Assembly (NCBI GenBank): GCA_002155895.1
Contig: MUMD01000118.1
Location: 1-35,196 of the forward strand
Length of the DNA: 35,196 bases
Source of the DNA: Streptomyces rochei
Lineage (GTDB): Bacteria > Actinomycetota > Actinomycetes > Streptomycetales > Streptomycetaceae
Reading direction: 5' to 3'
Positions 5,453 to 32,958 of the stretch are shown in pieces. A program made the translations under genes and the position numbers. Below the pieces are notes generated by a model, which saw only the letters and a list, made by a program, of their open reading frames with translations, did not search any database and was not told the origin of the DNA. The first letter of the stretch is position 1; every line of letters begins with the position of its first letter.

Positions 5453-6043
5453 TCAGCTCTCCCCGACCGGTTCGCCCACGTTCTCCTCGAACCGGCCGAC
5501 GACGTTCCCCGCGGGGTGGTAACTGCAGACGATGTACGTCTGGTACGCGTCCTGGTCGTCCCGCCGGCCGGCAGCCCTGCCGCACCCGAGCGTGTCGGTC
5601 GCCTTCCATACGACCTGAGTGAAGGAGGCGGTGTCGGGGGTGTAGCCGGGCCGGTCCCAGTCGTAGCCGCCCGTCCAGCGCTGCTCGTACCAGAGCCGCA
5701 CCGCCTCCTCGCACGTGGCCGGCTCGTGCTCGTAGCCGGCGAACCAGAAGCGGTTCTCCCCCCAGCCCCGCGCACCTGGCGGCAGCGCGCCCCCCTCCTG
5801 GGCCGACGCCTCCCGGGCGCGGCGCACGGCGTACGCGACGGCCGCGTCGTCCAGTCGCAGCGGGGCGGCGCCGTGGCGGGCTCGGTAGCGGTTGTGGGCG
5901 GCGAGGCAGTCCTCGTTGAACGCCTCGTCCGTCCGGTCGGACAACGGCGGCCACTCGTCCGCCGCTTGCACGGGCTGCACCGTGACAGCCGCGGTCAACA
6001 TCGCCGCCGCGACCGTCAGAACACCGGATGCGAAACGGCCCAT
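5453..6043 (-). CDS. secreted CAP/SCP-domain (PR-1-like) protein
   Basis: A 196-residue exported protein. Residues 1-28 form a Sec signal peptide (MGRFASG, then a hydrophobic run ending VQPVQA before ADEWPP). The rest is one CAP domain: CLAAHNRYRARHG near the start, WGENRFWFAG, EAVRLWYEQ, FTQVVWKATDTLGCG and CSYHPAGNVVGRFEENV. These are the conserved signatures of the CAP superfamily. Four cysteines could form two disulfides. Bacterial CAP proteins are of largely unknown function; some bind lipids. Start ATG 6043 has AGGAGG about 7 bases before it; in-frame codons further upstream add only low-complexity sequence. Just upstream is a palindrome, CGTACgccGTACG (6054-6066). It is divergent from the GntR regulator. 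Confidence 0.9.
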   Translation of the reverse strand: MGRFASGVLTVAAAMLTAAVTVQPVQAADEWPPLSDRTDEAFNEDCLAAHNRYRARHGAAPLRLDDAAVAYAVRRAREASAQEGGALPPGARGWGENRFWFAGYEHEPATCEEAVRLWYEQRWTGGYDWDRPGYTPDTASFTQVVWKATDTLGCGRAAGRRDDQDAYQTYIVCSYHPAGNVVGRFEENVGEPVGES

Positions 6044-6224
6044 GGGTCCTCCTCGTACGCCGTACGTTCCCGGCGATCGGACGAGCGCCGGACAACGCCC
6101 ATGGAAGGGGTCCGCGCGCTGCGCCACACCACCGTCTCCCGCCCGGCCACCCGTTCGCAGCAACGCCGACGCCCGTAAGCGTGAGCGTCTGGGGGGAGGG
6201 GGAGAGAGATACCTGGGTGTTTTT

Positions 6225-6253
6225 TATTCATATTTAATGTCGGGCGCTATCAT
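6225..6253 (+). promoter_or_regulatory. GntR-regulator promoter with operator copy 1
   Basis: The 13-base AT-rich motif ATTCATATTTAAT (6226-6238) stands out in otherwise G+C-rich DNA. A good -10, TATCAT (6248-6253), lies so that the 17-base spacer and a weak -35 (6225-6230) coincide with the motif. A protein bound here would block RNA polymerase. The same motif recurs at 7140-7152 and, with one change, at 18124-18136, so it is taken as the binding site of the regulator encoded at 6327 (autoregulation). Confidence 0.7.
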
Positions 6254-6326
6254 GGGCCCGCGCTCGCGCGCCCGCGGCGCCTCACCCGCGCGCCCCCGGC
6301 GTGCCCGACGTCAAGGAGATGACGGC

Positions 6327-7067
6327 ATGGCGGCCTACAGCACCCGAGGCGTGCACGGACAGGTGGTCCAGTCGCTCGGAGCGCGCATCGTGGGCGGCGC
6401 GGTCCCCGAAGGGGCGACCCTGGACGTGCGGGCGCTGGGGGAGGAGCTCGACGTCAGTCTGACCGTGATGCGCGAGTCGCTGAAGGTCCTGGCCGGCAAG
6501 GGTCTGGTGGACGCGCGGCAGAAGCGGGGCACGTTCGTCCGGGAGCGCAGGCACTGGAACCTCCTCGATGCCGACGTCATCCGCTGGCGTGTCGAAGGAG
6601 GTGGCGGCGGGGAGTTGATGCGGGACCTCGCCGACGTCCGCTCCATCATCGAGCCGGCCGCCGCGCGCCGCGCCGCCCTTCACCGTACGGACGCCGACCT
6701 GGAGGCGTTGGAGGCCGCGCTGGACTCCATGCGGCGCGCCCAGGGTGACTCGGCGGACGCCGCGGAGGCCGACGCGGCCTTCCACCGCGCCCTGCTGGCG
6801 GCCACCGGGAACGAGATGCTGACGCGCATGGACCTGTTCCTCGAGCCCGGCCTGCGGGAGCGCGACCGCCTCGTCCACGCCCATGCCGCCGCCGGCGACC
6901 CCGTGCCCAGCCATCGTGCCGTCCTGGACGCCGTGCGCGACGGGGACCCGGTCCGGGCCGAACTCGCCATGCTCGACCTGCTGGCCAAGGCCGTCGAGGA
7001 CGTGGACCGGCTCACCGGGCGCTCGGCCGCCCCGACGGACTCCCGCTCCTCCGGTCGGGCCCGCTGA
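6327..7067 (+). CDS. DgoR-like GntR/FadR-family transcriptional regulator
   Basis: A 246-residue regulator. Residues 8-75 form the winged helix of the GntR family (GARIVGGAVPEGATL, MRESLKVLAGKGLV, QKRGTFV). Residues 76-225 form an FCD ligand domain with candidate metal ligands Asp149 and His153 in ADAAFHRALL and His196 in SHRAVLDAV. The junction HWNLLDADVIRW closely resembles E. coli DgoR (QWNYLDTDVLQW), the galactonate-responsive repressor of the dgo operon. AAGGAG ends 8 bases before the ATG. The gene heads the galactonate operon and its own promoter carries the shared operator. Ligand (galactonate or a keto-deoxy derivative) is inferred from context. A decayed paralogue is at 18200-18290. 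Confidence 0.92.
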   Translation: MAAYSTRGVHGQVVQSLGARIVGGAVPEGATLDVRALGEELDVSLTVMRESLKVLAGKGLVDARQKRGTFVRERRHWNLLDADVIRWRVEGGGGGELMRDLADVRSIIEPAAARRAALHRTDADLEALEAALDSMRRAQGDSADAAEADAAFHRALLAATGNEMLTRMDLFLEPGLRERDRLVHAHAAAGDPVPSHRAVLDAVRDGDPVRAELAMLDLLAKAVEDVDRLTGRSAAPTDSRSSGRAR

Positions 7068-7123
7068 CCGGGCCGGGTGTCGCTCCGCGATCGTGCTGTG
7101 ACCTGCGCCTCAAGCGTGGCGTC

Positions 7124-7152
7124 TTGGCGGGCCTCAATAATTCATATTTAAT
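7124..7152 (+). promoter_or_regulatory. promoter of the galactonate operon with operator copy 2
   Basis: -35 TTGGCG (7124-7129), a 17-base spacer and -10 TTTAAT (7147-7152). The operator ATTCATATTTAAT (7140-7152) covers the whole -10 and is identical to the copy before the regulator gene. Occupancy would exclude RNA polymerase. The leader to the SDR start is roughly 90 bases. Confidence 0.7.
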
Positions 7153-7247
7153 AATACCGGCAGGTCGGCCGCATCCCGGCCGGCCGTCCCGCCCGCCCAC
7201 TCGTCCGCTCGCTCAGTCCGTTCGCGTCGCAGCCTCCGGAGCCGCCC

Positions 7248-8033
7248 ATGTCGTCCTCGTATCCGCAGCGTCCCCAGGCGGCGCCCCGTTTCCAGGGGCG
7301 CGTGGCCGTCGTCACGGGAGCGGCCGGCGGCATCGGCGCCGCGACCGCGCGGCGGCTCGCGGACGAGGGAGCCCGCGTCCTCGTCGCCGACATCGACACC
7401 GCGGAGGGCGAGCGCACGGTGCGCGCGATCCGGGACGCCGGCGGCCAGGCGCTCTTCCACCGCACCGACGTCAGCGACGAGGCGTCCTGGGCGTCGGCCC
7501 TGGACACCGTGCGCGAGGCGTACGGTCCGGTCTCCGCCCTCGTCTCCAACGCCTACGCCGTGCGCGTCGCCCCCGCCCACGCCACGACGCTCGACCAGTG
7601 GAACCAGCAGCTCGGCGTCACCCTCACCGGAGCCTTCCTCGGCTTCAGGGCATGCCTGGAGGACCTGCGCGCCACCCGGGGCGGCGCCGTCCTGATCTCC
7701 TCCGTACACGCCCTCGTCGGACTTCCGGGCCGCCCCGCCTACGCATCCGCCAAGGCCGGACTCACCGGCCTGGCACGCCAGTTGGCCGTCGAGTACGGAC
7801 CGGACGTCCGGGTGAACGCCCTGCTGCCCGGTCCCGTCCTCACCCGTGCCTGGGACGGCATCGGTGAGGAGGACCGACGTGCCAGCGCGGAACAGACCGT
7901 GGCCGGCCGGCTCGGCCGACCCGAGGAGGTGGCCGGCGCCACCGCCTTCCTGCTGAGCGACGACGCCTCCTTCGTGACCGGCGCCTCGCTGGTCGTGGAC
8001 GGCGGCTGGAGTGCGTACAAGACCTCGTCCTGA
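7248..8033 (+). CDS. SDR-family dehydrogenase, candidate galactose dehydrogenase
   Basis: A 261-residue classical short-chain dehydrogenase: nucleotide motif TGAAGGIG (residues 23-30), acidic VADID at the end of beta-2 suggesting NAD preference, SNAY in place of NNAG, and the catalytic triad Ser152, Tyr165, Lys169 (YASAK). The C-terminus has the usual GASLVVDGGW. It is the first gene after the operator-bearing promoter and is followed by dgoD, an aldolase and a kinase, so oxidation of D-galactose to galactono-lactone is the most economical role. SDR sequence alone does not fix the substrate; oxidation of another aldose is possible. A CGGAG lies about 9 bases before the ATG. Confidence 0.88.
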   Translation: MSSSYPQRPQAAPRFQGRVAVVTGAAGGIGAATARRLADEGARVLVADIDTAEGERTVRAIRDAGGQALFHRTDVSDEASWASALDTVREAYGPVSALVSNAYAVRVAPAHATTLDQWNQQLGVTLTGAFLGFRACLEDLRATRGGAVLISSVHALVGLPGRPAYASAKAGLTGLARQLAVEYGPDVRVNALLPGPVLTRAWDGIGEEDRRASAEQTVAGRLGRPEEVAGATAFLLSDDASFVTGASLVVDGGWSAYKTSS

Positions 8034-8085
8034 GAACGCGCCCGTCCGCGGCGGGCACCCGCGCCCGGCCGCACCAAGGAGAAGC

Positions 8086-9231
8086 ATGAAGATCACCCGC
8101 GTCGAGACCTTCGCCGTGCCACCGCGCTGGCTGCTGTGCCGTGTCGAGACGGACGACGGCGTCGTCGGCTGGGGCGAGCCGATGGTCGAGGGCCGTGCGG
8201 CCACCGTCCGCACCGCCGTGCGAGAGCTGTCCGAACTCCTCGTCGGGCAGGACCCGCTGCGTATCGAGGACCACTGGCAGACCATGACCAAGGGGTCGTT
8301 CTACCGCGGCGGCCCCGTGCTCTCCAGCGCGGTCGCCGGACTCGACCAGGCCCTGTGGGACATCGCCGGCAAGGTGTACGGCGCTCCCGTGTACCAACTG
8401 CTGGGCGGCCCCGTGCGCGACCGGGTACGGGCCTACAGCTGGGTCGGCGGCGACGAGCCGGCCCAGATCGCCGAGGCCGTCCGGGAACAGGTGGAGGCCG
8501 GCTTCACCGCCGTGAAGATGAACGCGAGCGGCCGGATGAACCGGCTGGCGACCGTGCGCGACATCGACGAGGTCGTCTCCCGCGCCGCCGCCGCCCGCGA
8601 AGCCCTCGGCGACGACCGGGACTTCGCCGTCGACTTCCACGGCAGGTTCACCGTCGCCAACGCCGCCAAGCTGCTGCCGCACCTCGCCCCGTACAACCCG
8701 CTGTTCGTCGAGGAACCCCTGCTCCCCGAGTACACCCACCGGTTGCGCGACCTGACCGCGTCCTCCCCCGTACCGCTGGCCCTCGGGGAGCGCCTCTACT
8801 CACGCACCGACGTCCTGCCCGCCCTCACCGCCGGAGTGGCCGTCCTCCAGCCCGACCTCTCGCACGCCGGCGGCGTCTCCGAGGTCCGCCGGATCGCCGC
8901 GCTCGCCGAGACCTTCGACGTACTGCTGGCCCCGCACTGCCCGCTGGGGCCCGTCTCGCTCGCCGCCAGCCTCCAGGTCGCCTTCACCACCCCGAACTTC
9001 CTCATCCAGGAACAGAGCGTCGGCATCCACTACAACGTGGGCGCCGGCCCGCTGGACTACCTGCTCGACACCACGCCGCTGCGCTTCCACGACGGACACC
9101 TGCTGCGCACCACCGCCCCCGGCCTCGGCATCGAGGTGGACGAGAAGGCGGTACGCGCCGCCGACGACACCGTCGAGGACTGGCACAACCCGCTGTGGCG
9201 GCACACCGACGGCTCCTTCGCCGAATGGTGA
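8086..9231 (+). CDS. dgoD: D-galactonate dehydratase
   Basis: A 381-residue enolase-superfamily dehydratase that converts D-galactonate to 2-keto-3-deoxygalactonate. Similarity to E. coli DgoD runs end to end: MKITRVETF, VGWGEP, FYRGGP, AYSWVGGD, ILQPDLSHAGG-like segment, LAPHCPLGP, EQSVGIHYN and the C-terminal NPLWRH...AEW. The metal ligands fall at Asp183, Glu209 and Glu235 and the acid/base residues at His185 (DFHGR) and His284 (APHCPLGP), the same positions as in the E. coli enzyme within one residue. AAGGAG lies just before the ATG. It follows the SDR gene by 52 bases and precedes the aldolase gene by 47, forming one operon. This is the gene that best identifies the pathway. Confidence 0.95.
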   Translation: MKITRVETFAVPPRWLLCRVETDDGVVGWGEPMVEGRAATVRTAVRELSELLVGQDPLRIEDHWQTMTKGSFYRGGPVLSSAVAGLDQALWDIAGKVYGAPVYQLLGGPVRDRVRAYSWVGGDEPAQIAEAVREQVEAGFTAVKMNASGRMNRLATVRDIDEVVSRAAAAREALGDDRDFAVDFHGRFTVANAAKLLPHLAPYNPLFVEEPLLPEYTHRLRDLTASSPVPLALGERLYSRTDVLPALTAGVAVLQPDLSHAGGVSEVRRIAALAETFDVLLAPHCPLGPVSLAASLQVAFTTPNFLIQEQSVGIHYNVGAGPLDYLLDTTPLRFHDGHLLRTTAPGLGIEVDEKAVRAADDTVEDWHNPLWRHTDGSFAEW

Positions 9232-9278
9232 TCCCGCCCGCAGACCCCCGCTCGACCCCGACCCTTCCGGACGTGACC

Positions 9279-9947
9279 ATGAACGCCCCGCAGTCCCGCG
9301 CCACCGACAGCTTCTCCGCCGTGCTGCGCCGCACCCGGCTGGCCGCCATCGTGCGCGGACCGGACGCCGGCGCAGCGCTGCGCACCGTCCTGACCCTGCT
9401 CGACGAGGGCGTGTCCCTCGTCGAGGTCTCGCTCAACACCGCCGACGCCCTCGGCGTCATCCGCCGGGCCGTCGCCGAGGCCGGTCCCTCGGCCTTCGTC
9501 GGCGCGGGCACCGTGCTGACCGAGGACGACGTCGCCCGCGCCCGGGAGGCCGGCGCGAGCTGGATCGTGACCCCCGCCCTCACGGAGTCCCTGGCCGCCT
9601 CGGTCCGCGTCGGACTGCCGGTGCTGGCCGGGGCGCTCACCCCGACCGAGGCCGTCGCCGCCCGGCGTGCCGGAGCCGACGCCGTCAAGCTGTTCCCCGC
9701 CTCGGCCGGCGGCCCCGCCTACCTCAAGGCTCTCCGCGATCCCTTCCCGGACCTGCCGTTCGTGCCGGTCGGCGGGGTGGACCTGACCGGTGCCGAGCAG
9801 TACCTCGCGTACGGCGCCGTCGCGGTCGGCGTCGGCTCCCCGCTGGTGGGCGACGCCGCGCGCGGCGGTGACCTGGCGGCCCTGCGCGAACGCGCTCGCC
9901 GCTTCGTCGCCCTCTGCGCCGGCGACACCCCGCGGGGGCGGGCATGA
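9279..9947 (+). CDS. 2-dehydro-3-deoxy-6-phosphogalactonate/gluconate aldolase
   Basis: A 222-residue class I aldolase of the KDPG/KDPGal family, cleaving the 6-phospho keto-deoxy sugar acid to pyruvate and glyceraldehyde 3-phosphate. Visible features: IVRG near the start, Glu49 in LVEVSLNT, GAGTVL for phosphate binding, Schiff-base Lys137 in DAVKLFPAS, and the second phosphate loop VPVGGVD. Sequence alone does not separate the gluconate and galactonate stereoisomers; the dgoD neighbour favours galactonate. Start is uncertain: ATG 9279 gives the usual family length, but GTG 9273 or an ATG at 9225 overlapping the dgoD stop are possible and none has a strong ribosome site. The end overlaps the kinase start by 4 bases (ATGA). 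Confidence 0.9.
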   Translation: MNAPQSRATDSFSAVLRRTRLAAIVRGPDAGAALRTVLTLLDEGVSLVEVSLNTADALGVIRRAVAEAGPSAFVGAGTVLTEDDVARAREAGASWIVTPALTESLAASVRVGLPVLAGALTPTEAVAARRAGADAVKLFPASAGGPAYLKALRDPFPDLPFVPVGGVDLTGAEQYLAYGAVAVGVGSPLVGDAARGGDLAALRERARRFVALCAGDTPRGRA

Positions 9948-10933
9948 GCACCGGCCCGCACACGGGGCAGGCGGCCGCCGACGTCCTGACGTTCGGCGAG
10001 ACCATGCTCGCCGCGCAACTGCCCGGACCGCTCGCGGTCGGCGCCGAGGCTCGCACCACCATCGCCGGTGCCGAGTCCAACGTGGCCATCGGCCTGGCCC
10101 GGCTGGGCCACCGGGCCGTCTGGGCGGGCCTGGTCGGCGACGACGAACCCGGCCGGCTGATCCTGCGCACGCTGCGCGGCGAAGGCGTCGACACCTCCCA
10201 CGCCGGCGTCCGCCCCGAGGCGCCCACCGGCGGCATGCTCCGGGAGCGACGCGTCGCCGACCTGGTCCGCGTCCACTACTGGCGCCGCCACTCCGCCGCC
10301 TCCCTGCTCGCCCCGCCCGACCTCGCGCCCGCTCTGCGCGCCGGCGCCCGCGTCCTGCACCTGACCGGCATCACCTGCGCCCTCGGCACCGGCCCGCTGG
10401 AGGCGGTGCGCGAGGCGGCCGCACACGCGCACGCCCACGGCTGGACCGTCGTCCTGGACGTCAACCACCGGCACCGCCTGTGGACGGGCGAGGAGGCCGG
10501 CCGGGCACTTCTGCCACTGCTGGAGCACGTCACCGTCCTGATCGCCTCCGACGACGAACTCCCCGTCGTCACCGGGGCCTTCGCCGAGCGGCCGCGGGGG
10601 GAGGAAGCCGCCGTCGACGCGCTGCTGGCGGCCGGGGTGCGGGAAGTGGTCGTCAAACGCGGGGGAGAGGGAGCCGCCTTCCGCGACGGCGACGGTTCCC
10701 GGCACACGGTCCCGGCCCTGCGGGTGCCCGTACGGGACACCGTGGGAGCGGGCGACGCGTTCTGTGCCGGCTATCTCTCCGGACTGCTCGACGGACTGCC
10801 CCCGGAGCGGCGCCTCGACCGCGCCAACACCCTCGGCGCGTTCGCCGTCGCCTCGGATGGCGACTGGGAGGGCCTGCCCCGCCGAGACGAACTGGGCCTG
10901 CTCGCCGCCGCCCCGGGGACCACGATCCGCTGA
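9944..10933 (+). CDS. PfkB-family 2-keto-3-deoxy-sugar-acid kinase
   Basis: A 329-residue ribokinase/PfkB-fold kinase predicted to phosphorylate 2-keto-3-deoxygalactonate (or gluconate) at C6. N-terminal FGETMLAAQ and AGAESNVAIGLARLG are characteristic of KDG kinases; VLDVNHRHRLW matches the DxNxRxxLW segment of that group; DTVGAGDAFCAGY carries the anion hole and catalytic base Asp271. The ATG overlaps the aldolase TGA, implying translational coupling. E. coli uses an unrelated kinase (DgoK) at this step, so the operon has a non-homologous replacement. It is the last gene of the rightward arm and converges on the leftward operon. Confidence 0.91.
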   Translation: MSTGPHTGQAAADVLTFGETMLAAQLPGPLAVGAEARTTIAGAESNVAIGLARLGHRAVWAGLVGDDEPGRLILRTLRGEGVDTSHAGVRPEAPTGGMLRERRVADLVRVHYWRRHSAASLLAPPDLAPALRAGARVLHLTGITCALGTGPLEAVREAAAHAHAHGWTVVLDVNHRHRLWTGEEAGRALLPLLEHVTVLIASDDELPVVTGAFAERPRGEEAAVDALLAAGVREVVVKRGGEGAAFRDGDGSRHTVPALRVPVRDTVGAGDAFCAGYLSGLLDGLPPERRLDRANTLGAFAVASDGDWEGLPRRDELGLLAAAPGTTIR

Positions 10934-11205
10934 CCGGTCCGGGATTCACCGACTCCTCGGATCACTGATCCCTCCGATCACTCCCCCCGAGCCCCCTGAG
11001 TCCCTCGAACACCGAGGCCCCGACCACTGGAAGCGCCCCACCACCAGTTCCGACCGGAAGGAGAAGTCAGGGGCCGTGGTGTCGACCATCGGACGGGTGC
11101 AACAGGCATCCTTGGCGGCGAAGGAGCCGGTCGCCGCCCATCGCGACCAGCCCCAGGGAGAGCCAGAAGGTGCCGTAAGCGCCGACCGGGCGGCCCGGCG
11201 GGACG
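10934..11205. other. gap between the two convergent galactoside operons
   Basis: No gene is evident. A short repeat GGATCactGATCC (10959-10971) is the only hairpin near the kinase end and is too weak to call a terminator with confidence. On the minus strand 11070-11186 reads VGAYGTFWLSLGLVAMGGD in an open stretch ending at a stop. This faintly resembles the YGxFWLSL segment of acetate-uptake (SatP/AceTr) transporters and may be a tiny gene relic. Confidence 0.4.
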
Positions 11206-12474
11206 TCAGCCGCGCAGCAGGGCGTTGCACTCCCGCTGCAGGGCGACGTCCTGCCACATCGGGTGGTGAGGGGCCGCGTTGGAGCACACGACCGCGCCCC
11301 AGGCTCCCCGGCGTGCCGCCTCGGCCACGGCGCGCCGGCACCAGGCCGCGCCGACCGGCCCCTCCTCGAACGTGCCGTGCAGCGGGGTGTAGCCGATCCA
11401 GCCCTCGCCGAAGACGAGCGGGATCCTCCGCATCGCGGCCCAGTCCGCGGCCGCGGCGATCCAGTCGGTGAGCTTCTGCTCCATGGCCGGGCGGTGGGTG
11501 GCGTAGCGCTCGTACAGCCAGGCGTCCCACGCCCGCGCGTCGCACCAGTCGTGGACGTAGACCTCGCGCGGCCCCACGACGGTGGCCTCGGTGCGCCAGC
11601 GGTCCGCCTCGGGCGGTGCCCACTCCGCCGGCTCCGGAGCGTCCTCGCGCAGCAGCTCCCGTCGGGCACGCTCCCGCGGGAAGGGCCGGGAGGCGTCGCG
11701 CAGGGCGAAGGTGTCCAGCAGCTCGTCCAGGACGCCGTAGAGATAGGGGTGGAAGACGGCGACGTCCATGCCGTCCGGCAGGGCGTGCAGGGACCCCACG
11801 GGCACCTGGGCGTAGTTGACGGTGACCGGCCGGCCGGGGTGGCGTGCGCGGAAGCGGGCCAGACCGCGTTCCAGGCGCGGCGTCAGCGCGGCGACCGTGT
11901 CGTCGCCGGTGAGCCGGTCGGTCAGCCGGCCGGCCTGGACCTCGTTGTGGAGTTCGGTGAAGGCGACCCGGTCGTCCAGACCGTCGTGGGCCGCCAGGAA
12001 GTCGATCAGGTCGGCCAGGGCGTCGGCGAGTGCTTCGGCCCGGTCCTCGGGGTCGATGGCCATGATGGCGTCGAACCACGTCCGGTCACCGGAGAAGGAA
12101 GGGCTCTGCTGGTACTCCCAGCTGGAGAGGATGACGTACACGTCGTGGCGGCGGGCGGCCTCGAACAGCGCCAGCAGGTGGGCCCGCGGGTCGGGCAGGG
12201 TGGTGGTGGCGCGCACGTCGTACCAGCGCACGCCCTGGCCGTACCGGCCGCCCAGAGGGCCGAGGGTGAGCGGTCCGCGTGGGCTGCCCGGCCCGAACAG
12301 CAGCAGGGGCATGGCGCAGACACGGACGGTGTTGTAGCCGCGTGCGACGGTCTGGGCGAACGCCTCGTCGAGATCGGCGAAGGGTTCGCCGGGCCCGGTG
12401 CGCGTGTACCAGCTGAAGTCCCACAGGCAGATGGTGAGGGTGTCGGGCAGGTGGGCGGGGGGTGCTACGGGCAT
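11206..12474 (-). CDS. 'cellulase-like' clan GH-A glycoside hydrolase
   Basis: A 422-residue protein with a predicted TIM barrel. TELHNEVQ puts an acid/base Glu at 178 at the end of strand 4 and VFGEGWIGY a nucleophile Glu at 357 near strand 7. This is the arrangement of clan GH-A retaining hydrolases (GH5, GH35, GH53 and relatives). ICLWDFSWYTR at the start and HPYLYGVLD are typical of proteins annotated 'cellulase-like family'. No signal peptide or carbohydrate-binding module is present, so despite the name it should act in the cytoplasm on an imported oligosaccharide. It is the last gene of the beta-galactosidase/transporter operon, 59 bases after the permease stop. ATG 12474 has AAAGG about 12 bases upstream. 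Substrate unknown; a galactoside is suggested only by context. Confidence 0.8.
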   Translation of the reverse strand: MPVAPPAHLPDTLTICLWDFSWYTRTGPGEPFADLDEAFAQTVARGYNTVRVCAMPLLLFGPGSPRGPLTLGPLGGRYGQGVRWYDVRATTTLPDPRAHLLALFEAARRHDVYVILSSWEYQQSPSFSGDRTWFDAIMAIDPEDRAEALADALADLIDFLAAHDGLDDRVAFTELHNEVQAGRLTDRLTGDDTVAALTPRLERGLARFRARHPGRPVTVNYAQVPVGSLHALPDGMDVAVFHPYLYGVLDELLDTFALRDASRPFPRERARRELLREDAPEPAEWAPPEADRWRTEATVVGPREVYVHDWCDARAWDAWLYERYATHRPAMEQKLTDWIAAAADWAAMRRIPLVFGEGWIGYTPLHGTFEEGPVGAAWCRRAVAEAARRGAWGAVVCSNAAPHHPMWQDVALQRECNALLRG

Positions 12475-12533
12475 GCGGAAGGAAGCCTTTCGACGGGAAG
12501 GGCGTGGGCGTGGCCGGGGGGCGTCCGGGCCGG

Positions 12534-13400
12534 TCAGCTCTTGACGGCGCCCGCGGTGAGCCCTTCGAGCAATTGTTTGCGCAGGACGAAGAAGACGATC
12601 AGGCTCGGGACGGCGGCGAGGACGGCACCCGCCAGGACCAGGTCGTACTGGCGTCCGGTGGCGCCGAACAGGGCCTGGATGCCGAGCGGGAGGGTGTAGT
12701 CGCCGGGTTCGCTGACCACGACCAGCGGCCACAGCAGGCTGTTGTAGCTGTTGAGGAACGACCACACGCCCAGGGCACCGAGGGCCGGGCGCAGCAGGGG
12801 CAGCACGATACGGCGGAAGAGCCCGAACTCGGTGCAGCCGTCCACACGGGCGGCGTCCAGCAGGGCGTCGGGGACGGACTGCTCGGTGAACTGGCGCATC
12901 ATGAAGATGCCGAACGCGGGTGCCACCCAGGGCACGACCAGCGCGAAGTACGGGGTGGTCAGGTGCGCCTTGGCGACCATGATGAACAGGGGCACGACGA
13001 TGACCGCGAACGGGACGGCCAGCGAGCTGAACATGATGTCGAACAGCAGGTTCTTGCCGCGGAAGCGGTACTTGGCGAAGGCGAACCCGGCGAGCGCGCA
13101 CAGCACGACGGAAGCGAGGGTGGAGATGACGGCCACCACGGTGCTGATCAGCAGCCAGCTCCAGAAGGGGTTGCCGTCCAGCAGCCCGCGGTAGTTGTCC
13201 AGGGTGCCCGGGTCGGGCAGCAGCTCGGGCGGGTGGGCGAAGATCTCGCTCCGGTCCTTGAAGGAGGACGACAAGGCCCACAGCAGGGGCAGGGCGAACA
13301 CCAGCAGCAGGGCGGTCAGGAAGGCGTAGAGCAGCACGCGGCCGGCGCTGCGGCGGGCGCGGACCGGGGCTCGGGCACCCGTCGTCTCGAACGTCGTCAT
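12534..13400 (-). CDS. carbohydrate ABC transporter permease, MalG type
   Basis: A 288-residue inner-membrane permease with six predicted transmembrane helices, the first at about residues 22-42 (VLLYAFLTALLLVFALPLLW). The ATPase-docking EAA loop reads DAARVDGCTEFGLFRRIVLP and the C-terminal LLEGLTAGAVKS is the classic end of MalG-type sugar permeases. It pairs with the upstream MalF-type permease, overlapping its stop by 4 bases (ATGA). No ATP-binding gene is in the cluster; Streptomyces sugar importers commonly share the MsiK ATPase encoded elsewhere. Likely cargo is a galactose-containing oligosaccharide, inferred from the GH35 gene. Confidence 0.94.
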   Translation of the reverse strand: MTTFETTGARAPVRARRSAGRVLLYAFLTALLLVFALPLLWALSSSFKDRSEIFAHPPELLPDPGTLDNYRGLLDGNPFWSWLLISTVVAVISTLASVVLCALAGFAFAKYRFRGKNLLFDIMFSSLAVPFAVIVVPLFIMVAKAHLTTPYFALVVPWVAPAFGIFMMRQFTEQSVPDALLDAARVDGCTEFGLFRRIVLPLLRPALGALGVWSFLNSYNSLLWPLVVVSEPGDYTLPLGIQALFGATGRQYDLVLAGAVLAAVPSLIVFFVLRKQLLEGLTAGAVKS

Positions 13401-14356
13401 CGGTCGTCTCTCCCCACTCCCAGCAGCCGCATGGCGAGGCGGCCCAGGACGAACACGGCGACGAAGAGCAGCACGCCGGCCGCCGCGGCGTAGCCGAGCT
13501 GCTGGCGCTGGAATCCGGCGCGGAAGATGAACATGGCCACCGACAGGGTCGACTCGCCCGGGCCGCCCTGAGCGAGCAGGAACGGCTCGTCGAAGATCTG
13601 CGCGGTGCTGACCAGGACGGTCACCGCGACGAACGCGGTGACCGGGCGCAGACTGGGCAGGGTGACGTTGCGGAAGCGGCTGATCGGCCCGGCGCCGTCG
13701 AGGGCGGCCGCCTCGTACAGTTCCTTGGGGACGTTCTGCAGTCCGGCCAGGAAGAATATGGTCAGGTAGCCGGTCCAGCGCCACAGCACGAGGACGACGA
13801 CGGTGACGCGCGCCCAGCCGGGGGAGCCCAGCCAGTCGATGCCGCCGAAGCCGAAGAGCGCCTGCCCCACCGCGTTGAGGAGGCCGAACTCGGTGTCGAA
13901 GAACAGACCGAAGACCAGGGTGATGACGATGGGTGAGATCACCACGGGCATGAAGTAGGTCAGCCGGAACAGGTCGCGTCCGCGCAGGCCGCGGGCGTTG
14001 AGGGCTTGGGCGATGAGCAGCGAGGCGGGAAGGACGACGCACAGCGTGAAGACGATGTACAGGCCGGTGTTGGCGACGGCGGTCCAGAAGCTGTGATCAC
14101 CCGACAGGTCCCGGTAGTTGCGCAGTCCCACCCAGCGGGGCGTGCCGAGCCCGGCCCACTCCGTGCAGCTGAGATACAGCCCGATCAGGATCGGCACCAG
14201 CAGGAAGAGCCCGTACAGCACGTAGAACGGGGAGATGAACACATAGGGGGCCCAGCCGCGCTGGCGGCGCGACCACCAGGACCGTGACGGCGCGGGGGTG
14301 AGGGGGAGCCGCGCCGAGGCGGTGGCGGGTGCGCGGGTCGGAGGCGGAGCGGTCAT
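13397..14356 (-). CDS. carbohydrate ABC transporter permease, MalF type
   Basis: A 319-residue membrane protein of the CUT1 sugar-importer class. After a Pro/Ala-rich cytoplasmic tail (residues 1-32), helices begin at YVFISPFYVLYGLFLLVPIL. The periplasm-side loop contains LRNYRDLSGD, the EAA loop reads EAAALDGAGPISRFRNVTLP, and the segment FDEPFLLAQGGP is the usual late MalF-like motif. Both ends overlap neighbouring genes by 4 bases (ATGA), so binding protein, MalF and MalG are translationally coupled. It forms the channel with the product at 12534-13400. Confidence 0.94.
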   Translation of the reverse strand: MTAPPPTRAPATASARLPLTPAPSRSWWSRRQRGWAPYVFISPFYVLYGLFLLVPILIGLYLSCTEWAGLGTPRWVGLRNYRDLSGDHSFWTAVANTGLYIVFTLCVVLPASLLIAQALNARGLRGRDLFRLTYFMPVVISPIVITLVFGLFFDTEFGLLNAVGQALFGFGGIDWLGSPGWARVTVVVLVLWRWTGYLTIFFLAGLQNVPKELYEAAALDGAGPISRFRNVTLPSLRPVTAFVAVTVLVSTAQIFDEPFLLAQGGPGESTLSVAMFIFRAGFQRQQLGYAAAAGVLLFVAVFVLGRLAMRLLGVGRDDR

Positions 14357-15681
14357 CGTTTCACCTGCTGTCGGTAGGCCCGCAGGCCGGCCTGGAGTGC
14401 GGCGTCGGGCGAGGTGCGTCCCTTGAGCACGTCCAGGACCGGGCCGCCCAGCACGTCGGCGAGGATCTGCATCCCCGGGGCCTGGTAGAAGAGGGGGAGG
14501 TCGGCGGCGGCCTCGCCGTACACGTCGAAGACCGGCTGACCGCCGAGGTAGGCGTCCTCGGTGGCGACGAGTTCGGGGTCCTGGTACAGGTGCTTGAGCG
14601 TGGGCAGGAAGCCGCCCGACTTGTAGCGCAGTATCTGGCCTTCGCGGCTGAGGTAGACGCGTCGGAGCAGTTCCAGGGCGGCCTGGGAGTGGGGCTTGTC
14701 CTTCAGCACCGCGAAGGCGGTGCCGCCCAGGGTCGAGCCGATGTGCCCGCCGCCGGCGAAGCGGGGCAGGGTCCGCATCCGCCAACGGCCTTTCTGGTCC
14801 GGCACGTTGGCCTGGAGGCCGTAGGCGTTGTACCAGTTCGGCATGGCCGTGGCGGCGAGCCGTCCGGACTTCAGCGCGGCCGCGCAGGCGCTTCCGTAGG
14901 GGTCGGGCAGGGCCAGCAGCGCGCCCGAGCGCACCCCGCGGGCCATGAACCGGAGCACCTCGAGTGCCTCGGGCGAGTCGAGGACGAGGTGGCCGGCTTC
15001 GTCGAAGAACCCGCCGCCGCGCTGCAGCAGGAACTGCAGGAAGCCGTTGACGATGGACCCGTTGTCGCCGGTGGAGACCATGCCGACGCTGACCTCGTGG
15101 TCCTTGCTGAGGCGCTCGCCGTGTTCGAGGAACTCCTCCCAGGTGGCCACCTGCTCGGGGACCCGGTACTTCTCGAACAGGTCCTGCCGGTAGTACAGGA
15201 CGGTGATCGAGTTGTCGGAGTCCAGCCCGTAGGGAACGCCGTCGACGGTGTACGGGACCAGTTTGAGCAGGTCGTCGCCGAAGGGGCGGACGGTGTCGCC
15301 GAGGTCGACGAACAGGTTCCGCGCGATGGAGGAGCCCATGACCCGGGGGAACTGGTCGATGACCAGACCGGCCAGGTCGGGGGTGTTCCCGTCGGCGACC
15401 GCCTGGGCGATCATGCGGGTCATCACGTCGCCGGGTGCCGCACTGGTGACCTTCAGCCCGTAGTCGAACCTCGACCCGCGCATCAGGCCGGTGTCCCGGA
15501 TCGCGGTCCGGAACGTCTTGATGTACCCGGGGTCATGGGTCCACAGGCTGATGCGGACGCGCCCGGAGCGCACCGGCGCGGCCGAGGAGGCTCCGCACGC
15601 GGCGAGCGCCGGGACGGTCAGCAGACCCGCTCCCGCCCCGACGCCGGCGCGCAGCACGCTTCTGCGGCTGAGGTCAGACAC
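14353..15681 (-). CDS. sugar-binding lipoprotein of the ABC importer
   Basis: A 442-residue extracellular solute-binding protein, family 1 type. The N-terminus SRRSVLRAG followed by a hydrophobic stretch and the lipobox ALAAC (Cys29) marks a Tat-compatible lipoprotein signal. The mature part has the two-lobe pattern of CUT1 binding proteins: ISLWTHDPG, DLAGLVIDQFPRV, VPYGLDSDNSITVLYYR, and ATAMPNWYNAYG in the ligand cleft. The GTG start overlaps the end of the GH35 gene by 8 bases. It is predicted to capture a beta-galactoside outside the membrane and pass it to the two permeases; the ligand is inferred. Confidence 0.93.
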   Translation of the reverse strand: MSDLSRRSVLRAGVGAGAGLLTVPALAACGASSAAPVRSGRVRISLWTHDPGYIKTFRTAIRDTGLMRGSRFDYGLKVTSAAPGDVMTRMIAQAVADGNTPDLAGLVIDQFPRVMGSSIARNLFVDLGDTVRPFGDDLLKLVPYTVDGVPYGLDSDNSITVLYYRQDLFEKYRVPEQVATWEEFLEHGERLSKDHEVSVGMVSTGDNGSIVNGFLQFLLQRGGGFFDEAGHLVLDSPEALEVLRFMARGVRSGALLALPDPYGSACAAALKSGRLAATAMPNWYNAYGLQANVPDQKGRWRMRTLPRFAGGGHIGSTLGGTAFAVLKDKPHSQAALELLRRVYLSREGQILRYKSGGFLPTLKHLYQDPELVATEDAYLGGQPVFDVYGEAAADLPLFYQAPGMQILADVLGGPVLDVLKGRTSPDAALQAGLRAYRQQVKR

Positions 15682-18049
15682 GTCCCTCTCCCTCGGCGGT
15701 CAGGCTCACCCGGGGCACGGCCACCAGCGCGGCGGACTCGACGGCGGCGCGGGTGACGGCGGCGTCGAACCGGGGTCGCACCGAGGCGTCGACGTAGACG
15801 CGGGCGACGGGATCGCGGGGCAGGACACGGATCTCCAGACCGTGCCGGACCACCGCGTCGGCGAACCGGCGCAGCCCGATCTCCCAGTCGGGCCCGTACC
15901 AGAAGTGGTCGGCGACCAGCCGCCCGTCGAGGTAGGCGCGGGCGGCGTCACCGGTGCAGCGCAGCCTCAGCAGTACCTCGCCGTCGCCGTCGAGGGCGGA
16001 GGCGGGAACGGTGAGACGGAAGACGGCGGCCTTGTCCCAGTCCGCCTCGCGGGGTGCCGAGGCGCGGTCGTGGGACCCGCCGGTACGCGCGGGCGCGGCG
16101 ACGGCCTGCTCCCGCACGGTCTCCAGGACCGGCTGCGGCAGTCGGGGAGCCCGCGCCAGCGGCCAGCGGGTGAAGACGCCGTCGGCCACCGGTTCCCCGA
16201 CACCGCTTCCGACCAGGGAGGCCGGGGCCGGCAGCAGGGCGACCGACGGGGTGTCGGAGGCGATGTGCAGACGCAGCCGGTCGCCGTCGGCGAAGACCAC
16301 GTCGTCGCTGAGGACGAGCCGGTCCTGCCCGAAGACCCGCGTCCGGTTCAGTCGGAGCGCGTGCTCGGGGGAGAGCACCAGGACGCGGGCCCGGCCGGCG
16401 GGACCGGTGAGGGTGAGCAGTGCCGAGGTGCCCGGTTCGGTCACGGTGACCAGCGTGGTCCCCTCCGCGGTGTCCACCCGGGCCGGGCCCTGGATCTCCA
16501 CGTCCGCCGCCAGCGCCAGCGTCGCAGGGACGCCGTCGGTCGCCGCGAGCACGGTCAGCGGGAGCCCGTCGACCTCGAGTCGGGTGACCGGCTCGGCGCC
16601 GGCCCACTCCAGCCGCAGACCGGCGCCGAGGTCCAGCCCGATCGGCCAGACGAAGTGGGCGCCGGACGGGATGCGCACGGGGTGTGCCGGCACGGCGACC
16701 GTACGGCCGCTGGGGAGGGTGACGCCGAAGCGCACGCCGTCGTGGTCGGGCAGCGTCTCGTGCGGCTGGTGGTTGTTGACGAACAGGAAGCCCTGGTCAC
16801 CCGCCGAGCGAACGGCCCAGCGCAGTGTGGACCGGTCGTCCAGTGAAGCCGGTTCCCGGTCGGGCAGGTGCAGCGGCATCCGCGCGAGCTCCGTACCGTA
16901 GGCGTGCAGGAACAGGTGCTGTCGGCGCAGCGCGTGGAAGGCCGGCCGGACCTGTCCGTACTCGCCCAGCGGAGCCTGGAAGTCGTAGGTGACTGTCGGC
17001 AGGTCGTTGGGGTAACCGGTGTCGTGGCTCTCCTGGTTCGGCTCCTTGAGGTCCACCCGCTGCGAACAGCCGTGGTACAGGTAGTAGCCCTGCCACACCG
17101 AACCGCTGCCGAGCTTGGTCAGCGCCAGCGAGGTGATGTCCGCGGCCGGCACGAGCGGCCTGCGGTGGTAGGCGATCGCCATGCCGCCGCCCAACTCGCA
17201 GGTGGCGTACGGATAGCGGCGCGCGTCCGGGCCGGTGCCGGTCGGGGCGCTGGAGCGCAGGTCGGCGCCGATGGCGTGGTCGTCGCGGATCGGCGTGAAG
17301 AAGTAGTGCCGGCGCATGTCGCGGGCCCACCCGTCGTGCGCGTCCTCCCAGAAGGCCTCTGGATAGCCGCCGTACAGCGGCAGGAGGGTGCCGGCCGGGA
17401 TGTCGGCGGCGCCCCAGCCGGTCGCCGTCCACAGCGGCGCGCGGATGCCGGCCTCCTCGGCCATGCGTCGCAGCGTGGCCAGGTGCTCGGGCTGGTCGTA
17501 CAGTTCGTTCTCCACCTGCACGGCCACGATCGGGCCGCCGTCCTCGTGGAAGAGGCCGCGCAGCTCGTGCGAGATGCGCCGGTAATAGGGCGCGACCAGG
17601 GCGAGGTACGCGGGATCGTCGGTGCGCGGCGCGCAGTCGACGTCCTCCAGCCAGTCGGGGAAGCCGCCGTTGCGGCATTCGCCGTGGGACCAGGGGCCGA
17701 TGCGGACGGCCACGGCCAGGTCCAGTTCCGCGCACAACGTGACGAACCCGCGTACGTCGAGGTCACCGTCGAAGCGGTAGGTGCCGCGGTCGTTCTCGTG
17801 CTGGTTCCAGAACAGGTAGGTGGCGAGCAGATCGACGCCGCCCGCCTTGATCTTGAGGAGCTCTTCGCGCCACTCGGCGGCGGGGCAGCGGCTGAAGTGG
17901 AACTCCCCCATGACCGGGATCCACCTGCGGCCGTCGCGCGACAGGCTCCGACTGTCGACCGTCACGGGGGAGGGGGTGCCGGCGGGGCTGCCCAGGGGCA
18001 GATGCCCGGCCAGGGGCACGGAAGGGTCGTGGGCATGCAGAGACAACAT
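15674..18049 (-). CDS. GH35 beta-galactosidase
   Basis: A 791-residue glycoside hydrolase of family 35. The family signature GGPIVAVQVENELY carries the acid/base Glu182, and YATCELGGGM the nucleophile Glu285. The barrel (about residues 30-385) begins with FHFSRCPAAEW and is followed by several beta-rich domains; a jelly-roll near the C-terminus contains ARAYLDGRLVADHFWYG. There is no signal peptide, so the enzyme hydrolyses imported beta-galactosides in the cytoplasm. ATG 18049 is chosen because CAGGAG lies 9 bases upstream; ATG 18070 lacks a ribosome site. It leads the operon GH35-binding protein-permease-permease-GH. The promoter at 18092-18120 has operator copy 3 immediately upstream. Confidence 0.94.
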   Translation of the reverse strand: MLSLHAHDPSVPLAGHLPLGSPAGTPSPVTVDSRSLSRDGRRWIPVMGEFHFSRCPAAEWREELLKIKAGGVDLLATYLFWNQHENDRGTYRFDGDLDVRGFVTLCAELDLAVAVRIGPWSHGECRNGGFPDWLEDVDCAPRTDDPAYLALVAPYYRRISHELRGLFHEDGGPIVAVQVENELYDQPEHLATLRRMAEEAGIRAPLWTATGWGAADIPAGTLLPLYGGYPEAFWEDAHDGWARDMRRHYFFTPIRDDHAIGADLRSSAPTGTGPDARRYPYATCELGGGMAIAYHRRPLVPAADITSLALTKLGSGSVWQGYYLYHGCSQRVDLKEPNQESHDTGYPNDLPTVTYDFQAPLGEYGQVRPAFHALRRQHLFLHAYGTELARMPLHLPDREPASLDDRSTLRWAVRSAGDQGFLFVNNHQPHETLPDHDGVRFGVTLPSGRTVAVPAHPVRIPSGAHFVWPIGLDLGAGLRLEWAGAEPVTRLEVDGLPLTVLAATDGVPATLALAADVEIQGPARVDTAEGTTLVTVTEPGTSALLTLTGPAGRARVLVLSPEHALRLNRTRVFGQDRLVLSDDVVFADGDRLRLHIASDTPSVALLPAPASLVGSGVGEPVADGVFTRWPLARAPRLPQPVLETVREQAVAAPARTGGSHDRASAPREADWDKAAVFRLTVPASALDGDGEVLLRLRCTGDAARAYLDGRLVADHFWYGPDWEIGLRRFADAVVRHGLEIRVLPRDPVARVYVDASVRPRFDAAVTRAAVESAALVAVPRVSLTAEGEGRV

Positions 18050-18091
18050 GACAGGCGGCTCCTGCGGCATGACTCAGTGAAGTGGGTTCAT

Positions 18092-18136
18092 CGTGGGTGG
18101 GGCCGGAAAGCCTGTCAAGATGTATTCATAATTAAT
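18092..18136 (-). promoter_or_regulatory. beta-galactosidase operon promoter with operator copy 3
   Basis: On the minus strand a perfect -35 TTGACA (18115-18120) and -10 CACGAT (18092-18097) are spaced by 17 bases, giving a leader of about 36 bases to ATG 18049. Three bases upstream of the -35 is ATTCATAATTAAT as read on the plus strand (18124-18136), which differs at one position from the copies at 6226 and 7140. The motif lies between this operon and the remnant of a second GntR gene, as expected for a divergent regulator/target pair. Confidence 0.7.
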
Positions 18137-18199
18137 AACCACGGCGGGAAGGGTGTCGCACCGCAAGAGGCGGCCCCGCGCATCCCCTGGAGTACCTGA

Positions 18200-18290
18200 A
18201 TGGCGTCCTGCACCGGCCGAGGTGTGCACGGACAGGTCGTCCACGCCCTGCCAAGGCCGTCCACGACTTCGACCAGGTGACGCGCCGGTG
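18200..18290 (+). pseudogene. internally deleted second GntR/FadR regulator
   Basis: ATG 18200, with GGAG 7 bases upstream, opens MASCTGRGVHGQVVHAL. This aligns with the first residues of the regulator at 6327 (MAAYSTRGVHGQVVQSL). After about 17 codons the DNA jumps, with a frame change, to sequence reading AKAVHDFDQVTRR, which matches that regulator's C-terminal AKAVEDVDRLTGR. Roughly 600 bases coding for most of the DNA-binding and all of the ligand domain are gone, so only N- and C-terminal stubs remain. The intact ancestor would have been divergent from the beta-galactosidase operon across operator copy 3. The relic abuts the end of the Clp gene. Confidence 0.82.
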
Positions 18291-18308
18291 CGCCGTCGTC
18301 GTCGCCCG

Positions 18309-20858
<2,550 letters not shown>

Positions 20859-31204: not shown

Positions 31205-31437
31205 ACCCGGTCTCCGTGGGACCGTTGCCGCTGTCGAAGACGCGCGACCGATCGAGGGCGGCCGGTGGGCGTGTTGTGCGCGCACAGCCGCGCGTTTCTC
31301 GAGGCAGGCGCGCTCGGTTCCCGACGCCGCCTCGTCGGCTCGGGGGAGTCCCTGAGGTCCGTCTCCGGGACGAATGAGGGGTCGGCCAGGGGCTTGCCCC
31401 GATGACCGGCCTCCTGACCGGCCAAGATCCTTGGGAC
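31205..31437. other. upstream region of the multicopper oxidase gene
   Basis: No gene is supported. CTTGCCCCG near 31393 and CAAGAT near 31423 are weak promoter-like elements with poor spacing. I see no palindrome of the CsoR or CueR copper-operator type. Confidence 0.4.
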
Positions 31438-32958
31438 ATGTCCCGGACGAAACGCGTACTCCTCATCTCCGGCTCGGTCCTCACCGCGCTGGCCCTCCTT
31501 GTCGGCGGGGCCTTCTTCTGGCTGTGGACGAGCGCCGACGTGACCACCGTCGGCAAGGAGTCCTTCGACAACGAGCTCGCGATACCGCCTCTCGCCGAGT
31601 CGCGCGTCGACAAGGACGGGACACGCGTCTTCGACCTGCGCATGCGTCCGGGGCGCAAGGAGTTCGTGGACGGGCGTACGACCGACACCTGGGGCTTCAA
31701 CGGCGACCATCTGGGACCGACCCTGCGCGCGCAGCGCGGCGAGAAGGTCCGTGTACGGGTCCACAACGGCCTCGACGAAGCGTCCACCGTGCACTGGCAC
31801 GGCATGCACCTGCCCGCGAAGATGGACGGAGGCCCGCACCAGATGGTGGCCGCGGGCGCCACCTGGTCCCCGCACTGGACGGTCGACCAGCCGACCGACA
31901 CCCTCTGGTACCACCCGCATCCCCACGGCGCGACGGAGAAGCACGTCCAGCGCGGGCTGGCCGGCATGTTCATCCTCGACGACCCCGCGTCCGACCGACT
32001 CGCGCTGCCGACGCGTTACGGGATCGACGACATACCCCTGATCGTGCAGGACGTCTCCTTCGACGGAGCCGCTTTCGACCACGGTCGCGGCCCGATGCAG
32101 AACGTCGGTTTCCTCGGCGAGCGGACCATGGTCAACGGCACGCTCAGCCCGTACCGGAAGGTCGCCGACGAACGGGTGCGCCTGCGCCTGCTGAACGCCT
32201 CGGCGGCCCGCACCTACGCCTTCGGGTTCTCCGACGACCGCGCCTTCGACCTGGTGGGTACCGACGGCGGCCTCCTGGAGCGGCCCGCCGCGATCGAACG
32301 GCTCCAACTCTCCCCCGGGGAGCGGGCCGAGATCGTCGTGACGATGCGCCCCGGCGAGCGGACCGTCCTGCGCAGCTACCCCCAGGACAACTACGGTGAT
32401 GCCTGGCAGCAGCGGTTCAACGGCGGTGACGACTCTTTCGACGTACTGCAACTGCGCGCCGCCGACCGCCTGCGCCCCTCGCCCGGGACACCCGCCGAAC
32501 TGGGCACACCGGAGGTGCCGGACGGCACCGAGGCCGTGAAGACCCGCCACTTCGACCTCAAGCGCTCCGGGATCAACGGCCGAGCCATGGCCATGGACCG
32601 GGTGGACGAGACCGTCACCCGGGGGACGACCGAGATCTGGACGGTGCGCAACACGAACGGCATGCCGCACAACTTCCACGTCCACGACGTCCAGTTCCGC
32701 GTGCTGGAGGTGAACGGCGAAGCACCGTCGGGAGCGCTGCGCGGCCCCAAGGACACGGTGTTCGTGCCGAACGGCACCACGATGAAACTGGCCATGCGCT
32801 TCGACGGCCCGGCCGACCCGAACACGCCGTACATGTACCACTGCCACCTGCTCTACCACGAGGACCAGGGAATGATGGGGCAGTTCGTGGTCGTCGAGAA
32901 CGGCCGACAGGCGGGCGGGCCCGGCCGGCACCAACACCAGCATCAGCACCAGCACTGA
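31438..32958 (+). CDS. multicopper oxidase (CueO/bilirubin-oxidase-like)
   Basis: A 506-residue three-domain multicopper oxidase coupling one-electron oxidation of a substrate to reduction of O2. All four copper-binding segments are present: HWHG (His119, His121), HPHPHG (His159, His161), HNFHVHD, and HCHLLYHEDQGMM (468-480), with Cys469, His474 and axial Met479 for the type 1 copper. Residues 7-30 form one hydrophobic helix after MSRTKR, either an uncleaved signal anchor or a signal peptide, so the enzyme faces outward. The C-terminus is an unusual alternating His-Gln tail (residues 498-506). ATG 31438 is chosen over GTG/ATG codons upstream because the hydrophobic segment then follows the basic start directly. 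Substrate could be Cu(I), phenolics or bilirubin-like compounds. Confidence 0.92.
   Translation: MSRTKRVLLISGSVLTALALLVGGAFFWLWTSADVTTVGKESFDNELAIPPLAESRVDKDGTRVFDLRMRPGRKEFVDGRTTDTWGFNGDHLGPTLRAQRGEKVRVRVHNGLDEASTVHWHGMHLPAKMDGGPHQMVAAGATWSPHWTVDQPTDTLWYHPHPHGATEKHVQRGLAGMFILDDPASDRLALPTRYGIDDIPLIVQDVSFDGAAFDHGRGPMQNVGFLGERTMVNGTLSPYRKVADERVRLRLLNASAARTYAFGFSDDRAFDLVGTDGGLLERPAAIERLQLSPGERAEIVVTMRPGERTVLRSYPQDNYGDAWQQRFNGGDDSFDVLQLRAADRLRPSPGTPAELGTPEVPDGTEAVKTRHFDLKRSGINGRAMAMDRVDETVTRGTTEIWTVRNTNGMPHNFHVHDVQFRVLEVNGEAPSGALRGPKDTVFVPNGTTMKLAMRFDGPADPNTPYMYHCHLLYHEDQGMMGQFVVVENGRQAGGPGRHQHQHQHQH

Follow-up and report, generated by a model that had tools for sequence, protein, structure and literature searches.

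A predicted galactoside regulon of Streptomyces rochei, with a DgoR-like GntR regulator and an AT-only operator at three promoters

How could one regulator hold together the uptake and hydrolysis of a galactoside and the oxidation of galactose, when the genes for these steps lie in two separate operons? The question is raised by a stretch of 35,196 nucleotides of Streptomyces rochei (assembly GCA_002155895.1, contig MUMD01000118.1, positions 1–35,196 of the forward strand; “the window” means this whole stretch), in which an operon led by a GntR-type regulator gene (6327–10933, + strand) converges, as an earlier note on this DNA had said, with a β-galactosidase operon (18070–11206, − strand). 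That note had proposed that three copies of an AT-rich 13-bp operator place both operons under this regulator. Comparative genomics supports the proposal that a single GntR/FCD regulator, through a 13-bp operator present at three promoters, ties hydrolysis by a glycoside hydrolase of family 35 (GH35) and ATP-binding cassette (ABC) uptake to dgoD-type oxidation. We consider it very likely, from sequence comparison, that the regulon is real, and we hold with considerable confidence that the one regulator and its three operators would co-control galactoside uptake, hydrolysis and oxidation.

The three operators lie exactly where the earlier note had placed them, all on the + strand. Operator 1, ATTCATATTTAAT at 6226–6238, covers the predicted −35 box and spacer of the regulator’s own promoter; operator 2, again ATTCATATTTAAT, at 7140–7152, has in its bases 7147–7152 the −10 box of the operon of the short-chain dehydrogenase/reductase (SDR) and dgoD; and operator 3, ATTCATAATTAAT at 18124–18136, stands ahead of the GH35 −35 box with a gap of 5 bp. 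The operator consensus is ATTMATnWTTAAT, a 13-bp dyad. With up to three mismatches allowed, the window contains these three sites only, besides site 3 read backwards, while 0.03 matches are expected from shuffled sequences. When the whole assembly was scanned (808 contigs, 7,682,401 bases), as the note had called for, exact matches numbered three and nothing differed by only one or two bases, and the motif scattered away from sugar genes, an outcome that would speak against a regulon, was sought across this genome and not found. At three mismatches the genome gave 27 matches (one of them site 3 reversed) and a reversed-pattern control 11; this level is to be read as background, and the three sites are thus set apart from the rest of the genome. 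As for the suggestion that the loose dyad suits a dimeric repressor, the dyad itself stands, and the variant ATTAATAATTAAT, found in three relatives (L034, L035, and L038), is a perfect dyad except for its centre base and therefore fits binding by a dimer.

The sites recur before regulator, GH35, and SDR genes in related Streptomyces loci, where the note had asked for a scan. We fetched 140 stretches (L numbers), 141 with the window, and found a regulator homologue in 136 of the 141; by recognition helix and identity, these fall into clade A (19 members, at least 73% identical by tblastn, window included), near A (4), B (71), C (19), D (22), and one other. Among clade-A regulators, 18 of 19 have a site at no more than one mismatch, 67–115 bp before the start, and L075 has a two-mismatch site. 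All the GH35 genes found in the 141 stretches (10/10) have a site 54–146 bp before the matched start, and so do 15 of 17 clade-A SDR genes (at least 66% identity) upstream, a count that omits two weak SDR-like matches (38% in L038 and 36% in L076). In 124/136 loci, the fetched stretch that carries the regulator homologue also contains dgoD. A third site also stands before a transporter gene in L034 (14090), L035 (13677), and L038 (3772); by hidden Markov model, the L034 transporter belongs to the major facilitator superfamily, and the starts of the L035 and L038 genes are near-identical to it. No relatives of the ABC and GH35 genes were found in these three fetched stretches, as if transport modules had been exchanged beneath one operator. 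An extra exact site lies at another cluster gene in L039 (13584) and L041 (13512); near it, L039 has open reading frames for a DUF2264 protein (13592–15601) and for a large product with only hexapeptide-repeat matches (11656–13617).

Does the motif follow the regulator across the genus? In a survey of 392 genomes, where a homologue was counted at E 1e-40 or better and the seven leading first-look candidates of each genome were scored, 130 genomes have a close relative of the 6327 regulator and an exact copy of the operator is present in 31 (counted by hand from the match list). All 31 of these carry the homologue, compared with the background of 130/392 (hypergeometric P 9.5e-17). With one mismatch allowed, the motif occurs in 77/392 genomes and the reversed control pattern in 17/392, and 62 of the 77 have a regulator homologue.

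The placement of each site within its promoter agrees with what the note had described. Site 1 overlies the predicted −35/spacer region of the regulator promoter and is followed by a −10-like box conserved in relatives: TATCAT (6248–6253, +) is equally placed in L034, L035, and L038, and, of the 17 clade-A regulator promoters inspected, 12 have a TAnnnT box 9 bp beyond the site and three have one 8 bp beyond it, L045 and L046 having it at neither spacing. Site 2 lies over the −10 box of the SDR–dgoD operon, whose promoter reads TTGGCG (7124–7129, +), 17 bp, TTTAAT (7147–7152). All 17 SDR/dgoD-type promoters compared share the layout TTGGNN-17-TTTAAT, in which the last six bases of the operator are the −10 box; these operators end in ...ATATTTAAT, and their base 8 is T in 17/17, while base 8 of the regulator- and GH35-type sites is A in 23/24, the lone T being in the window’s own site 1. 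The W at base 8 of the consensus thus follows from promoter anatomy, that is, from the −10 box inside the SDR/dgoD operators. This tally used 41 of 48 sites, dropping the three sites before transporter genes (all with T at base 8), those at other genes (L039, L041, and L071), and L036 13203, of ambiguous orientation. Site 3 is just upstream of a perfect TTGACA (18118–18113, − strand), followed after 17 bp by CACGAT (18095–18090), so that the GH35 promoter occupies 18090–18118, and the order operator, 5 bp, TTGACA, 17 bp, C/GACGAT is shared by 9/10 GH35 genes, the exception being L051. There, a single site (10706) lies between divergent GH35 and SDR genes in the SDR layout, and it may serve both. 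A generic σ70 scan of 6000–18400 gave no promoter above its threshold; the promoter assignments therefore rest on conservation.

Beyond site 3 there is a feature that the earlier note did not report. It is what remains of another GntR gene, divergently transcribed (18200–18292, +), of which the first 17 codons and a 3′ piece remain and the middle is lost. This relic is clear only in ungapped comparison with the regulators of relatives. Positions 18200–18250 match the gene starts of L071 at 47/51, of L070 at 45/51, and of the window’s own regulator at 40/51, the chance maximum being 32 (67,892 placements), and positions 18249–18292 match the L071 gene, in register, at 32/44, the chance maximum being 27 (67,906 placements). 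For the 3′ piece, the near-equal identities in L036 (31 of 44), the window’s own gene (30), and L070 (26) mean that it marks the end of a GntR gene and does not tell its clade. Gapped alignment of the window regulator with the DNA beyond site 3 was borderline (33.5, control maximum 32.0 in 458 slices), and for the 3′ piece it scored 24.0, under the control maximum of 26.0 (742 slices). An intact GntR gene is divergent from GH35, with the site between them, in L070, L071, L044, and L074, and likewise from the solute-binding gene in L040 and L042; the 5′ piece of the relic is nearest to GntR genes still opposite GH35, those of L071 and L070. A Clp-type AAA+ ATPase gene (18309–20858, −) adjoins the relic.

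The second gene has been reduced to about 90 bp, while operator 3 is intact at 13/13 and the GH35 promoter is kept. Since the operator and promoter have outlasted the lost gene, the 6327 regulator probably took over site 3 from it; the regulators next closest to it in the genome share no more than about 40% and 35% identity with it, so site 3 is likely served by the 6327 regulator. Sharing of operators between regulators is made plausible by two genomes that each contain two clade-A regulators with like operators (G355, with L038 and L040; G360, with L034 and L075).

What kind of regulator would read such a site? The 6327 protein (6327–7067, +) has a GntR winged helix-turn-helix domain (PF00392, residues 12–71, 52.1 bits, cut-off 27) and an FCD domain (PF07729, residues 100–220, 83.7 bits, cut-off 24.3), which places it in the FadR/FCD subfamily. 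Its best match among solved structures is the D-galactonate repressor DgoR of E. coli (7C7E, E 3.6e-29; next best 3.2e-12), with which it shares the two domains and a dgoD-type operon as target, the latter predicted here from gene neighbourhood. According to the available part of the DgoR work (PMC7674646), that protein has a metal triad, D146/H150/H195, and binds galactonate through R102, W181, T191, and R224; the triad is kept in the window protein as D149/H153/H196, and of the galactonate residues only R102 is kept, as R105. The effector is therefore likely a sugar acid, although galactonate itself is not assured. DgoR binds inverted repeats overlapping its promoter, and sugar-acid regulators of the FadR family usually repress, as far as the accessible portions of two papers go (PMC7674646 and PMC12288454). 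The regulon proposed here is wider than that of DgoR, adding GH35, the ABC transporter, and a hydrolase.

In the part of the comparative study of the FadR subfamily available to us (Suvorova 2015, PMC4494728), the operators are A/T-rich dyads with an unpaired central base, as in the window, and consist of TKGT/ACMA boxes (TKGT-N3-ACMA), whose G is contacted by an arginine of the recognition helix (Arg45 in FadR, numbered from Table 1 there, and Arg63 in AraR). Neither trait was found in the window: the sites, ATTMATnWTTAAT, lack GT..AC, with M and A where FadR-type sites have G and T at −3/−2, so the G..C contacts are absent, and the helix, VSLTVMRE, has Leu45, where DgoR has Arg42 (in our numbering of the alignment). 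The same available part gives BioR and NanR as exceptions to this operator type within the subfamily, BioR with an operator that is likewise AT-rich and non-canonical and has another sequence and length (TTATMKATAA); since such exceptions exist, a protein whose sites lack GT..AC can still belong to the subfamily, as a variant. The window protein and its DNA thus depart from the usual pattern on both sides. BioR itself controls biotin genes.

Position 45, counted on what we take to be the FadR helix sequence, is Leu in 94 of the 136 homologues, Gln in 21, Lys in 19, Thr in one, and Arg in one (L153). For comparison, we fetched 33 paralogues from five genomes picked for carrying a clade-A regulator and dropped one (L187), which gave no alignment; Arg is present in 32/32, and a stretch with at least 11 A/T of 13 within 300 bp upstream in 0/32. 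By the same measure, such a stretch precedes the regulator in 19/19 members of clade A, 2/4 near A, 15/22 of D, 6/71 of B, and 1/19 of C, and these last two figures weigh against a simple rule joining Arg loss to an AT stretch. Regulators of clades B and C mostly follow an SDR gene in the same direction, their sites being elsewhere in the locus where found. In a tree built from 70 of the 136 rows, clades A, B, and C each form one group and clade D forms two; the clades being related by descent, the Arg/AT pattern may reflect few evolutionary events.

In the 71 loci of clade B, a site of the clade-A type is mostly not found upstream of the regulator gene, a scarcity that seemed to fail the model until a related motif, ATTACTAATTTAT with its variants, was found in 56 of them by word counts with a looser pattern. 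The same pattern occurs in 18/19 loci of clade A, 15/19 of C, and 12/22 of D, and in none of the remaining loci; motif reads were counted on both strands, so that near-palindromes enter the site totals twice. Clade B has dyads of its own, related to those of clade A but different, for instance at L077 13723–13739 and L163 612–628 (ATTACTAATTTAT and ATTAGTAATTAAT). Operator bases 4–5 are CA or AA in clade A, CA in C, mostly AC, AG, or CC in B, and mostly GC in D, but the A-type CA also occurs in four reads of clade B and three of clade D, so the rule is not strict. We lean, somewhat more than evenly, towards the view that a DgoR-like branch gave up both the helix arginine and the GT..AC core and came to read an AT-only dyad that varies by clade, and that its regulators replaced one another, the 6327 regulator taking the operator of the collapsed one and so joining hydrolysis and uptake to oxidation; if the branch reads AT-only dyads, the likeness of operators within a clade means that its regulators could substitute for one another. 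The apparent loss of the helix arginine together with the AT-only core goes beyond the earlier note, and what is new in this prediction is that a branch of DgoR-like regulators would have an AT-only operator and govern a wider regulon. A literature search covering titles and the starts of abstracts, with most subscription papers outside its scope, did not find this regulon or motif named, and the papers that contain a motif string apparently concern other organisms.

The mechanism that we propose is as follows. The 6327 regulator, of the FadR subfamily and distantly DgoR-like, would bind ATTMATnWTTAAT as a dimer at the three promoters. At site 1, over the −35/spacer of its own promoter, it would repress itself; at site 2, bound over the operator that holds the −10 box, it would shut RNA polymerase out of the SDR–dgoD–aldolase–kinase promoter; and at site 3 it would act from 5 bp upstream of the −35 box of the GH35–ABC–hydrolase promoter, a site presumably once shared with the divergent second GntR gene and today served by the 6327 regulator. 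The regulator would be freed, through its metal-binding FCD domain, by an acid formed as an intermediate when galactose is oxidised (perhaps galactonate or a related compound), and uptake, hydrolysis, and oxidation would then be induced jointly.

Several observations weigh against this picture. Fifteen of the 77 genomes with the motif at no more than one mismatch lack a regulator at E 1e-40 or better among the seven candidates scored in each, and the kinship of regulators within one genus makes many of the counts non-independent. Two of the 17 clade-A SDR genes (L071 and L076) have no site; the GH35 site of L051 is at a different distance and without the TTGACA layout; and the window protein, as aligned, does not have DgoR W181, T191, and R224, although nearby gaps make the placement of W181 and T191 uncertain. 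Moreover, the position of site 3 would also suit an activator, and a dual regulator, repressing its own gene and SDR–dgoD and activating GH35 from site 3, is the most serious alternative, though we think it unlikely. Site 3 occupies about −53 to −41, ahead of the −35 box, with the fixed 5-bp gap in 9/10 GH35 promoters; TCAA, a −35 box in leftward reading, precedes 22/25 clade C and 53/92 clade B motif reads at a spacing of exactly 5 nt; and the GH35 −10 box, CACGAT, is poor. On the other hand, a promoter with a perfect −35 box is more likely to be repressed than to need an activator, the promoter of the divergent regulator in relatives is covered by this site as well, so that one site may serve a divergon, and repression is the usual mode of FadR-family sugar-acid regulators in the partly available papers cited above.

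It is improbable that site 3 is a mere leftover of the promoter of the lost GntR gene that no longer matters: the relic is directly beside it, but the site is intact at 13/13, whereas the TAnnnT box 8–9 bp after it is gone and so is almost all of the coding part, and L036, L039, L041, and L043 keep the site by GH35 without a neighbouring GntR gene (counting the window, five places hold both operator and GH35 promoter and have no intact divergent regulator), no relic having been found beside the GH35 site in these four. It is very improbable that these 13-mers are not operators but AT-rich parts of promoters or UP elements, for although site 2 contains a −10 box and site 3 adjoins a −35 box, one 13-mer stands at three different promoter positions, is unique in the genome, and tracks the regulator in its genus-wide occurrence. 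Hardly credible at all is binding by another GntR paralogue of the same genome, since, of those that exist (nine weaker matches at E 1e-5 or better, besides two at about 40% and 35% identity), the closest two carry Arg45 and are without an AT-rich stretch (12 of 15) in the surrounding 5–6 kb, and the sites adjoin the 6327 gene.

The two operons that the 6327 regulator would co-control have the following gene content. On the + strand, the regulator gene is followed by the SDR gene (7248–8033, PF13561/PF00106), a candidate galactose dehydrogenase by its presumed substrate; galactonate dehydratase DgoD (8086–9231, NF010624 at 578 bits, cut-off 311); an aldolase of the 2-keto-3-deoxy-6-phosphogluconate/-galactonate (KDPG/KDPGal) type (9279–9947, PF01081, with TIGR01182 at 155.1 bits, slightly below its cut-off of 156.05); and a PfkB-type sugar kinase (9944–10933, PF00294; the top NCBIfam model, NF040938, at 163.6 bits, below its cut-off of 400), probably a 2-keto-3-deoxygalactonate kinase, to judge from its presumed substrate. 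Together, we take the SDR, DgoD, kinase, and aldolase to form a plausible oxidative route of the De Ley–Doudoroff type from galactose to pyruvate and triose phosphate. On the − strand lie the GH35 β-galactosidase (15674–18070, start perhaps 18049; PF01301, matching GH35 β-galactosidases of known structure), the ABC solute-binding protein (14353–15681, PF13416/PF01547), the ABC sugar permeases A (13397–14356) and B (12534–13400; both PF00528), and a cellulase-like putative glycoside hydrolase (11206–12474, PF12876, with a short match to the putative glycoside hydrolase 3gyc). Elsewhere in the window, a gene for a CAP-domain protein (PF00188; 5453–6163, −) lies upstream of the regulator and divergent from it, with no link to the regulon seen, and a multicopper oxidase gene (PF07732, PF07731, and PF00394) is at 31402–32958 (+).

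In summary, the locus would give Streptomyces a galactoside regulon with an operator precise enough to locate the regulon in other genomes. The relic beside site 3 would be a snapshot of the replacement of one regulator by another with the operator retained, and the clades of this DgoR-like branch, with their graded set of natural regulators and operators, may help to show in what way DNA is read by a GntR helix that lacks the customary arginine.

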